Below, in pieces: positions 4,932 through 7,156 of a DNA stretch of 64,000 nucleotides. The stretch's first letter is position 1, and each line of letters opens with the position of its first letter. This stretch comes from Silvibacterium dinghuense (GTDB lineage Bacteria; Acidobacteriota; Terriglobia; Terriglobales; Acidobacteriaceae), in NCBI RefSeq assembly GCF_004123295.1, contig NZ_SDMK01000002.1, positions 702,784-766,783 on the forward strand. The letters run 5' to 3'. The notes beneath the pieces are model-generated. The model worked only from the letters and a program-made list of their open reading frames with translations, made no database searches and was not told the DNA's origin. The translations under genes and the position numbers were made by a program.

Positions 4932-5747
4932 CTACTTCTTACCCTTGGCCCAGCGCACTACGCGATACACCACCGGAGGAATGACTTCGTTTGCAATTCT
5001 TTTCCGGAGTGGATCTCGCCGGTCATAAAAAGTCGGTGCATACACCGAGGCATGTGGAATGAACTTCTCATCCGGCACCGTGTGAAAGTACGCGGCGAAC
5101 GACATGCGCGCGCGATCTTCCACCAATACCGGGCGAACCCCGTGAAAGTTCTGGTCGGCAACCTCGAAGATCACCGTCCGATTGAAGATCGGCTCGACAA
5201 CCCGCTCGCAACGCGAGCCGGTCGTATCCCAGAGCTCCAGCTGGCCGCCATATTCTGGCTTCCAGTTCTTGTTCAGATAGGTCAGCATGGCCAGCCGACG
5301 GCGCAGGCCGGTGTTCTGATCGATATTCCGGTCCGCATGCACGTCGAACTTGCCGCCCTTCGGCACAACGTGAAAGCCCGCGCCTCCCATATAGGGGTCG
5401 GGCAGCAGAGACCATATATCGGTCAGCTCCGTGAGCAGGTAAAGGAACTTCGCGGAGTTCACAAACGCGGAGAATTGGTAGCCCTTCTCTTCAAACTCAA
5501 CGGCCGAACGCAGATTCGACTTCGCCAGCCGCTCCCGCCGCTCATGCACCCACTTATCGTCCGTAAGCGGAGGAATTTCATTCAGGACGCCGTCCAGGAC
5601 CTCATCCGGGAACATGTTATCGATGACCAGGTGGGGAAACGGCTTGGCGTTCTTATACTGCTGCTGCAGCTCCGCGGTGCTGACCGGCAGCTTTATCTTG
5701 CCCGCCATCATCGTCATAATGCCTGTCTCTTGCATCGTCGCCATCAT
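4932..5747 (-). CDS. Fe(II)/2-oxoglutarate-dependent oxygenase (prolyl-4-hydroxylase-like fold)
   Basis: The 271-residue protein has the iron-binding triad of the family: His137-x-Asp139 (FDVHADRN) and His202 (NFHGVRP), followed by a likely 2-oxoglutarate-binding arginine at about residue 214 (RMSFAAYFH). The segment TYLNKNWKPEYGGQLELW is typical of the double-stranded beta-helix in 2OG-Fe(II) oxygenases of the prolyl-4-hydroxylase group. The substrate is unknown. It lies in the same orientation as the exopolysaccharide genes, 117 bases upstream of the Wzc-like kinase gene, and may be the first gene of that transcription unit. An AAAGGA sequence just upstream supports a start at 5747 or at the next ATG, three bases later. 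Confidence 0.82.
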   Translation of the reverse strand: MMATMQETGIMTMMAGKIKLPVSTAELQQQYKNAKPFPHLVIDNMFPDEVLDGVLNEIPPLTDDKWVHERRERLAKSNLRSAVEFEEKGYQFSAFVNSAKFLYLLTELTDIWSLLPDPYMGGAGFHVVPKGGKFDVHADRNIDQNTGLRRRLAMLTYLNKNWKPEYGGQLELWDTTGSRCERVVEPIFNRTVIFEVADQNFHGVRPVLVEDRARMSFAAYFHTVPDEKFIPHASVYAPTFYDRRDPLRKRIANEVIPPVVYRVVRWAKGKK

Positions 5748-6202
5748 CGTTCCTTTATTCGCGGTGTTCTGGGTTGCAGGTCAGGATTGCAAAGTTTAGA
5801 TCGAGAGGAGGGAGTTAGACACAATGGATCATCCAGGTGCACGCTTACCCGCGCCAATCTGAACCCTGCTGCATCATTACTGTTCTGCTTGCTGGACCTG
5901 ACGAATCAAAGATGATCGGAGCTGCCCGTCACTACAGGACCTCGATTGCGGCACGCTGAGGGAGGCGCATCGCATGTCTTTCAGAGGTACGGGCTTCGCC
6001 CCTTTCAGTCACATACCGCCCTTCACTCGGCCGGCAGCGATCTGCGGTGCTGTCGAGAGCGTATCGCGAGTTTATCCCGCCTCACTCTCGTTCTGATACT
6101 GACAAAAGTACTAAACGCGACAATAAATTGTTATCCCCGGATGGTAATAATCACCACGATCTTTGGAATCCGGAAATGGGTCGCACTTATGTAACTGTTA
6201 CC
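5748..6202. other. Intergenic region upstream of the exopolysaccharide/oxygenase genes
   Basis: No credible gene is seen in these 455 bases on either strand; open frames here lack ribosome-binding sites and protein-like composition. Part of the stretch (about 6095-6160) is distinctly more AT-rich than its surroundings and is a plausible place for the promoter of the minus-strand exopolysaccharide genes, but I cannot assign -10 and -35 boxes with confidence. The inverted-repeat element at 6203-6471 follows directly. Confidence 0.5.
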
Positions 6203-6471
6203 AGGGTGTATCGACCTATTCGGGGATGCAGCGTTGCTGGGGCAAATTGGCCCAGACGAGGCGGAGTCCGAAGACTGTGGTGGGCCCACCGTCGAGGGCG
6301 ACAACGAAGTATGGGCCAATTTGCCCCGCAACCCGGAGGGCCGGGGCCGATTTTTTCCGCTCTCCTCGTCACTCGTCGCTCGCAGATGTCCAATCTGCGT
6401 CGCTCCTCGCTCCTCGATAGCGGAAAAAATCGGCTCCCGGCGCTCGCTCCTCGAATAGGTCGATACACCCT
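6203..6471. repeat. Three-branched nested inverted-repeat element
   Basis: The ends are a perfect 20-bp inverted repeat, AGGGTGTATCGACCTATTCG at 6203-6222 and its complement at 6452-6471. Inside are two further hairpin arms. Arm A pairs 6239-6254 (GGGGCAAATTGGCCCA) with 6312-6327, perfect over 16 bp, and extends through GTTGC/GCAAC past one bulged T; near its apex is the perfect palindrome GGTGGGCCCACC (6279-6290). Arm B pairs 6346-6361 (GCCGATTTTTTCCGCT) with 6419-6434, perfect over 16 bp, and extends through GCCGGG/CCCGGC past one bulged T; near its apex is CGCAGAT/ATCTGCG (6381-6399). The whole folds on paper as a three-way junction. The right end includes the marC stop codon. It could be a non-autonomous mobile element, a REP-like repeat or a structured RNA. 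Confidence 0.85.
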
Positions 6472-7156
6472 AACGGTGACTCCCGATGGTCTCCAGATAG
6501 GAACGCACTCCGGTGGCCACAATCTGGATGCCAATGCACACCAGAATGAACGAGGAAAGCCGCATCACCACGATGGTTCCCGTCTTGCCCAGCAGCCGTT
6601 CGGCACGCCGCGCATAGCGGTAACAGATATAGATCACCAGGCATACCAGCAGGGCGCCGGCAATACCCGGAATCAGGACACGAGGGGATAGAAACGCCAG
6701 ACCGCCGCGTTCCGCCATCAGGTGCGCGCCCAGCGTGATGGCCACCGAAATCGAACCCGGCCCTACCGTGATCGGCAGCGTAAAAGGATAGAACGCATGG
6801 TCGATCAGATTCGATCCATCGTCTCCATCCGTTCGCGCCTTCCGCGCATCCTGGTTCAATAATGACCAGCCCGCGACCGTCACAATAAGCCCTCCGCCGA
6901 TCTGCACCGCGTAGATGGAGATGCCGAAGAACGACAGCACCTCGACACCCCACAGCATCGATGCGACCAGCAGCACTACGCTGTAGATAGCAATCTTCCG
7001 CGCCAGGATCGCCTGGATCCGTTCATCGACCTCACCGACAAGGCCGCTGAAGATCGCAGCACTGCCGAGCGGGTTCACGATAGGAAACAGCGCGGCCACA
7101 ACCAGCACCGTTTCTTTCAGCAGGAATGTAATGTCCAAAGAAAGATTGCTCACCAT
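6470..7156 (-). CDS. MarC family integral membrane protein
   Basis: This 228-residue protein has six or so hydrophobic segments and the family signatures FPIVNPLGSAAIF (residues 24-36) and LPITVGPGSISVAITLGA (near 130-147). MarC (UPF0056) proteins sit in the inner membrane. An early link to multiple antibiotic resistance was later disputed, and their true substrate is not established. Length is normal. The stop codon TAG (6470-6472) and final codons lie at the right end of the inverted-repeat element, so any transcript running past marC would carry that structure. It follows lon in the same direction, separated by a terminator-like hairpin. Confidence 0.88.
   Translation of the reverse strand: MVSNLSLDITFLLKETVLVVAALFPIVNPLGSAAIFSGLVGEVDERIQAILARKIAIYSVVLLVASMLWGVEVLSFFGISIYAVQIGGGLIVTVAGWSLLNQDARKARTDGDDGSNLIDHAFYPFTLPITVGPGSISVAITLGAHLMAERGGLAFLSPRVLIPGIAGALLVCLVIYICYRYARRAERLLGKTGTIVVMRLSSFILVCIGIQIVATGVRSYLETIGSHR

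Follow-up and report, generated by a model that had tools for sequence, protein, structure and literature searches.

A probable IS5-mobilised, MITE-like element with a conserved double-hairpin core at the 3' end of marC in Silvibacterium dinghuense

The window analysed here is a stretch of 64,000 nucleotides from Silvibacterium dinghuense (contig NZ_SDMK01000002.1, positions 702,784 to 766,783 of the forward strand), and all coordinates refer to it unless another contig is named. A marC-type transporter gene and an oxygenase-like gene downstream of it, both on the minus strand, enclose a strongly folded repeat with the following features:

4932–5747, minus strand: 2OG-Fe(II) oxygenase-like gene downstream of marC, family match below the cut-off
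6202–6203, no strand assigned: left flanking dinucleotide CA, presumably an altered copy of a TA target duplication
6204–6470 (267 bp), plus strand: whole element, probably a MITE-like copy with IS5-type ends; limits taken from the inverted repeat and the TA context; 32 BLAST matches at about 31 places in its own genome
6204–6222, plus strand: left terminal inverted repeat GGGTGTATCGACCTATTCG, defined by repeat pairing; the same ends occur in one other element, and 14/17 nt agree with IS ends of the same genome
6232–6442, plus strand: conserved core of 211 nt, matched over its full length by covariance model R1
6233–6332, plus strand: arm 1 (P2), with a stem, a purine-rich inner part pairing at about every third base, and an apical palindrome
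6332–6340, plus strand: central hairpin CCC-GGA-GGG (P3), with near-invariant pairs 135–142 and 136–141 in alignment A1
6341–6441, plus strand: arm 2 (P4), inversely related to arm 1 and rich in purines when the minus strand is read
6452–6470, minus strand: right terminal inverted repeat; the minus strand reads the same 19 nt as the left one
6470–7156, minus strand: marC-type transporter gene (TIGR00427, 101.3 bits at a cut-off of 99.2), its stop codon overlapping the element
6471–6472, no strand assigned: right flanking TA, which together with C6470 forms TAG, the marC stop, on the minus strand

The left copy of the outer repeat, AGGGTGTATCGACCTATTCG at 6203–6222, pairs perfectly over 20 bp with 6452–6471. 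It encloses arm 1, built from the stem halves GGGGCAAATTGGCCCA/TGGGCCAATTTGCCCC, and arm 2, built from GCCGATTTTTTCCGCT/AGCGGAAAAAATCGGC with a bulged T within GGCTCCC; apical palindromes lie at 6279–6290 (GGTGGGCCCACC) and at 6381–6387/6393–6399 (CGCAGAT/ATCTGCG). The original prediction, made from the letters of the window, had pointed out the outer repeat, both arms, the bulged T and the palindromes, and all of them are present where it placed them. In arm 1, pairs at about every third base stand amid purine-rich mismatches, which may form sheared G-A pairs. The proposal that the fold exceeds chance also held up: folding of 6203–6471 with RNA parameters gave −169 kcal/mol (z −11.0) for the plus strand and −166 kcal/mol (z −13.2) for the minus strand, folding of the plus strand of 6204–6470 with DNA parameters gave a z of −13.45, and in each of these three cases 0 of 200 shuffles were as stable. 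Both strands fold alike because the two arms are inverted relatives of one another. As to the predicted three-way junction, the branching is confirmed, but the small hairpin at 6332–6340 adds a further branch between the arms; similarly, the outer repeat does span the proposed limits 6203–6471, but the mobile unit is best taken as 6204–6470.

BLAST searches of the own genome with the folded stretch as query (40 of the 54 candidates scored) and of genomes of the family returned homologues, contradicting the absence of any homologue that had been named as an argument against the element. Most own-genome copies have the core in common (query positions of about 26–240) and differ from the window copy in their ends. 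The commonest end in this genome, AGAGCCTGTTATGAACTTTC, occurs 54 times at up to 3 mismatches, its reversed pattern not once; by our own count these 54 ends resolve into 23 pairs, 268–312 bp apart, and 8 single ends, and all 23 pairs coincide with a core copy found by BLAST. The window-type end AGGGTGTATCGACCTATTCG was encountered without mismatch in one other element of this genome only (C1:204737–204929), which is devoid of query positions 52–109, corresponding to the distal part of arm 1. On a tree of cores, end classes change at least 12 times (102 copies) or 9 times (99 copies), which suggests a repeated exchange of ends. Window-type ends fall in three places of a quick tree; the case for independent acquisitions of these ends was nevertheless dropped, as the AU test does not reject one origin (p 0.376, 0.246, and 0.159 without L138), and the same test did not reject all own-genome copies as one clade (p 0.166).

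Full copies measure about 267 bp, of which about 209 nt form the core, made up of the two arms and a very small hairpin between them. The core is 208–210 nt long in 69 of 102 copies, and the outer helix P1 comprises 28–30 nt on both sides in 101 of 102. The paired ends match at 18–20 of 20 nt in 95 of 101 copies, a count that has to be read in light of the selection of copy ends by inverted-repeat search before matches were counted. TA flanks 57 of 101 copies on both sides and 93 of 101 on at least one side, with the fuller context CTA...TAG in 29 of 101; identical flanking 3-mers are seen in 4 of 101 copies. Target duplications are frequently imperfect, as in the window copy with its CA/TA. 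The distal arm halves are inverted relatives, most clearly in L188 when read by eye, and for this reason 43 of 50 loci are hit by the core model on both strands, with a lower score on one of them. A coding function of the core was rejected for want of a conserved open frame: no frame is open in all copies (the best, on the minus strand of the core, is open in 61 of 102), and all three remainders modulo 3 occur among the core lengths.

Some variants of the element deserve description in their own right. In four own-genome copies (L027, L028, L029 and L077), the mini-hairpin CCC-GAA-GGG is replaced by a longer, CCCCAATATTCGTTTTCAGGGG-like one that adds about 14 nt. A second hairpin of about 42 nt, CCGGGGTCCCCA...TGGGGTGG, is located within loops of L023, L146, L166, L175, L150 and L113, once or twice per copy and at varying positions (arm 1, the central hairpin, or arm 2, there inverted); it gives the impression of a smaller mobile hairpin lodged inside the larger unit and is absent from the window. 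End-pair sizes of about 267, 309 and 351 recur in genome G129. The own genome further harbours another dispersed family (L072–L076), about 220 bp long, that lacks the double-hairpin core; its ends resemble AGGGTGTATCGACCTA and its inner repeat resembles TTTCGACCGGAGC...GCTCCGGTCGGGATGACA. In L072, one copy of this family seems to have entered a double-hairpin element at a CTAG in its arm 1 apex. The window has no match to an 18-nt piece of this family.

The stop codon TAG of marC is composed of the adjoining TA at 6471–6472 and the last base of the element, C6470. The earlier suggestion that the insertion supplied the end of marC is thus correct in a narrow sense, in that the element provides the G of the stop codon, the rest being the adjoining TA. 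As for the insertion polymorphism looked for at this site, marC and the homologue of the downstream oxygenase gene are adjacent in a congener (G117), with the element absent between them, at a divergence that leaves the junction unreadable to the base; in G066, a different gene follows marC. One G117 locus (L044) shows 100% identity over 3268 nt with a Silvibacterium bohemicum S15 record, in keeping with the genus of the window. Across 87 copies and with genes called by our own gene caller, 37 of 88 gene 3' ends facing a copy end lie within 3 bp of it, versus 0 of 86 5' ends. The abutment of gene 3' ends is explained by the TA contained in stop codons, a scarce dinucleotide that makes up 2.3% of steps in the window; survival of the host gene would presumably add to this abutment.

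Matches to PF13340 were found in 6 of 19 carrier genomes. Two ISs of 898 bp each, in G149 (L096) and G129 (L097), have ends identical to those of the local elements at 17 of 17 and 16 of 17 nt, respectively, and each encodes a transposase of 275 aa scoring above the cut-offs of NF033580, DDE_Tnp_1 and DUF4096. The own-genome IS (L094; about 810 bp) contains an N and split frames; its ends agree with those of the window copy at 14/17 nt, and its larger fragment scores above the DUF4096 cut-off and below the NCBIfam cut-off (74 vs 110 bits). A cross-genome match of 14/17 was obtained between an IS of G117 and the ends of the own-genome copy L021, while element ends tested against local ISs reached 9/17 in G117 and 6/17 in G031. 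The commonest own-genome ends (GAGCCTGTTATGAACTTTC) agree with the own-genome ISs at only 8–9 of 17 nt, and most own-genome copies may be stranded, since no IS with these ends was found in the own genome. Judged by sequence, three types of element ends have counterparts among IS ends, not always in the same genome. An IS630/Tc1-mariner origin, which the CTAG targets had suggested, was discarded, as the own genome gave no PF13358 (DDE_3) match.

Coreless hairpins that consist of two ends only (50–63 bp) occur in G167 (L211–L214) and G129 (L215–L217), accounting for 7 of 34 end pairs in these two genomes and for 7 of 42 across four genomes. The four coreless 51-bp forms of G167 are nearly one sequence, lie at different sites, and one of them is inverted. 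The ends alone are thus apparently able to spread, which makes a strict requirement of the core for transposition improbable.

The element reaches well beyond its own genome. BLAST matches were obtained in 26 of 200 genomes of a sample of the family Acidobacteriaceae, and covariance model matches in 75 of 396 genomes (37 of 210 genera) of a sample of the phylum, the own genome being included in both cases. Across GTDB species genomes, an exact conserved pattern was found in 67 stretches, from records titled Acidobacteria, Acidobacteriaceae, Acidobacterium, Terriglobus albidus and Silvibacterium bohemicum and from one Chromatiaceae MAG. Pseudomonas aeruginosa PA83, Azotobacter chroococcum (on two plasmids) and Halomonas sp. 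PA16-9 have plasmid-borne whole cores, with E values between 7e-33 and 4e-38, and a plasmid of Methylophaga frappieri gave a weak match (E 2e-7). An outer inverted repeat pairing at 18–22 of 22 positions was recovered from all 22 copies of other families and from 4 of the 5 gammaproteobacterial copies, where the score is the best across a small offset range and the set of five excludes L207; the fifth of these copies (L209) gave no outer repeat, and an IS630-type transposase gene is annotated nearby. A far diverged full element with an outer repeat of 21/22 was noticed at L161:4427–4691, on a contig whose origin is given as labelled (Chromatiaceae MAG). With the PA83 copy as query, phages and E. 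coli genomes gave no match, and viral contigs had none to one strict pattern.

The fold itself varies by compensation. The core of the window copy scores 226 bits against covariance model R1 (L001:1530–1740), being itself among the sequences of the model. In alignment A1 (40 copies), which also served to predict the structure, 97.1% of cells pair, and both-sided change is seen in 58 of 82 pairs; none of 500 shuffles attains this count, and slid structures give 20–25. The 22 copies from other families of the phylum, folded independently, yielded the same outer helix, arms and central hairpin, and their alignment shows both-sided change in 65 of 76 pairs, compared with a mean of 44.7 and a maximum of 53 in 200 shuffles. 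Among 58 cores from three groups, this applies to 37 of 43 pairs. The idea that unpaired core positions are more conserved than paired ones was dismissed, as the mean consensus frequency in A1 is 0.872 for paired and 0.821 for unpaired positions, and as conservation across all three groups is found at 21 of 123 unpaired positions and at 16 of 86 paired ones (p 0.85). The alignments thus revealed the compensatory changes whose absence would have spoken against the element, and their excess over shuffles and slid controls supports the proposed selection for a multi-branched fold. The original prediction had set many dispersed copies, as the mark of a mobile element, against a single copy with compensatory changes, as the mark of a functional RNA; copies are many and compensatory changes are present, so that this either/or did not hold.

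Searches against Rfam release 15 speak against a known RNA family: none reached its gathering score, and two matches at E 2.7 and 5 stayed far below it. A stand-alone structured ncRNA gene, one of the classes initially considered, is disfavoured by the multi-copy, dispersed occurrence, the lack of strand preference in the wide set and the lack of an Rfam match. Nor did the assignment to REP-type repeats withstand comparison, the unit being far longer, with two matched ends and TA flanks. REP/BIME sequences are associated with a RAYT transposase. They are described in PMC3733652 as a palindrome of 20–40 bp tagged at one end, and the double-hairpin unit of about 267 bp with two matched ends falls outside that description.

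The element fits the MITE kind in its layout, with target duplication and a same-genome partner partly borne out on present sequence evidence. In PMC10969869 and PMC2229807, bacterial MITEs are presented as non-coding, dispersed, with paired terminal inverted repeats and TA at their ends, typically A+T-rich and shorter than 200 bp (the length from PMC2229807), thought to be moved in trans by an IS transposase and predicted to give a stable folded transcript. Compared with this portrayal, the double-hairpin element is alike in its non-coding nature, paired ends, TA, dispersal, presumed trans mobilisation and folding, but it is G+C-rich, measures about 267 bp and carries several end types on one core conserved in two phyla. 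The Caulobacter CIR repeats, as characterised in PMC2229807, consist of two long inverted repeats forming two arms and a linker with a conserved predicted structure; they are contrasted there with repeats closed by pairing of the 5' and 3' ends, and their way of moving is called unclear. At the level of description, the two arms are alike, whereas here they lie within paired IS5-type ends. The bcr1–bcr18 repeats of Bacillus cereus, according to PMC3446304, are dispersed and intergenic; they include MITE-like members and members whose RNA structure is conserved, and transcription was detected for about half of the copies. By description, they resemble our element in dispersal and in MITE-like or structured traits. 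In some genomes, IS5-family ISs (NF033580, transpos_IS5_3) share their terminal repeats and the TA context with the element, but they are about 810–900 bp long and carry a transposase gene, and the core was not recognised as a remnant of them. Within openly licensed PMC papers, nothing on the double-hairpin element was found.

Membership in the MITE class, the remaining one of the initially named possibilities, agrees with the dispersed copies, the paired ends, the TA-type flanks, the IS5-family ISs with shared ends in some carriers and the empty site in one congener, and covariation of the fold is observed in addition. We consider it very probable that the window element is an IS5-mobilised, MITE-like non-autonomous mobile element with a conserved structured core, a judgement tempered by the genomes whose ISs do not share the element ends. 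Mobilisation in trans by an IS, current mobility and maintenance of the core by selection are what we infer beyond these observations. In the mechanism we propose, an IS5-family DDE transposase (NF033580; DUF4096 plus DDE_Tnp_1) made elsewhere would recognise the paired ends, which would double as the outer helix P1. Insertion would occur at TA, mostly in a YTAR context and often inside a stop codon, whose TA would again be completed to TAG by the first base of the element, allowing the host gene to survive. Between the ends would sit the core of about 209 nt with its two mutually inverted hairpin arms and the central mini-hairpin, and because the arms are mutually inverted, with the mini-hairpin between them, either strand and either orientation of insertion would present much the same shape.

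Why the core persists may be explained in several ways. If it were needed in cis, its hairpins in single-stranded or supercoiled DNA would juxtapose the two ends so that the transposase can act on them, and copies would leave progeny only if their core is intact. This would account for the core enclosed by every one of the 23 main-pattern end pairs in the own genome, the P1 length kept at 28–30 nt on both sides in 101/102 copies, the recurrence of the layout in other families and the similar folding of both strands; we nevertheless regard it as unlikely, given that 7 of the 34 end pairs in G129 and G167 enclose merely 50–63 bp and that the four near-identical 51-bp forms at different sites of G167 indicate that a coreless form seems to have spread, weakening any strict requirement of the core for mobility. 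An RNA functional on one strand, expressed from its own promoter or by read-through, with the element as an RNA gene that happens to be mobile, appears similarly improbable. The strong covariation, the conservation of 21 of 123 unpaired core positions throughout the three groups and the surplus of G-T over A-C mismatches in A1 (80 vs 32 cells, favouring the plus strand) can be cited for it, but this conservation does not exceed that of paired positions (16/86), and the wobble signal for one functional strand is lost in the wide set (50 rows), where 16 pairs have more G-T than A-C mismatches and 17 have more A-C than G-T (p 1.0), the two arms leaning opposite ways. Orientation to neighbouring genes is even as well (45 sense vs 43 antisense 3' ends), and an Rfam match is lacking; the promoter scan found none, yet with 0.5 expected by chance this says little.

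Compensatory changes alone need not imply function, and long palindromes are known substrates of quasi-palindrome correction. At replication forks, the sequence of one arm could be copied into the other, which would keep the stems of any long palindrome matched without selection. We deem this explanation quite unlikely, because the core stays at 208–210 nt in 69 of 102 copies, unpaired motifs are common to Acidobacteriota families and Gammaproteobacteria, and isolated pairs three bases apart covary too, which correction alone does not predict. Least credible of all is the idea that the element is kept at gene ends to terminate transcription in both directions or to act as an insulator: the abutment of gene 3' ends (37/88) and one terminator-like match inside the element would be in its favour, yet the former is accounted for by the TA in stop codons and the latter stands against 0.4 expected. 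Intrinsic terminators are hairpins with a T-run, favoured between convergent genes. Convergent, codirectional and divergent gene pairs around the copies (22/44/21 of 87) further approximate the 1:2:1 of a random choice, and a two-arm core would be unnecessary for such a role; on the strength of the orientation ratio and the site count, we set the terminator role aside.

The likeliest reading, put forward tentatively, is that the core is an orientation-indifferent folded module that may act as a transcript or as an extruded DNA hairpin. With comparable reserve, we envisage that one gene-less lineage may have outlasted the splitting of families and reached two phyla by repeatedly re-matching its ends to available IS5-family transposases, while the core would stay because, folded as RNA or DNA and in whichever orientation, it serves some purpose of its own. 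MITE interiors are usually regarded as free to drift. In the element described here, the interior retains its layout, shows covariation between families and turns up again in Gammaproteobacteria, while the end type changes. With it comes a large, covarying folded nucleic acid that gave no match among Rfam families and whose role is accessible to study in non-pathogenic soil bacteria, and a long-lived element that hops between transposases becomes testable in sequence data.
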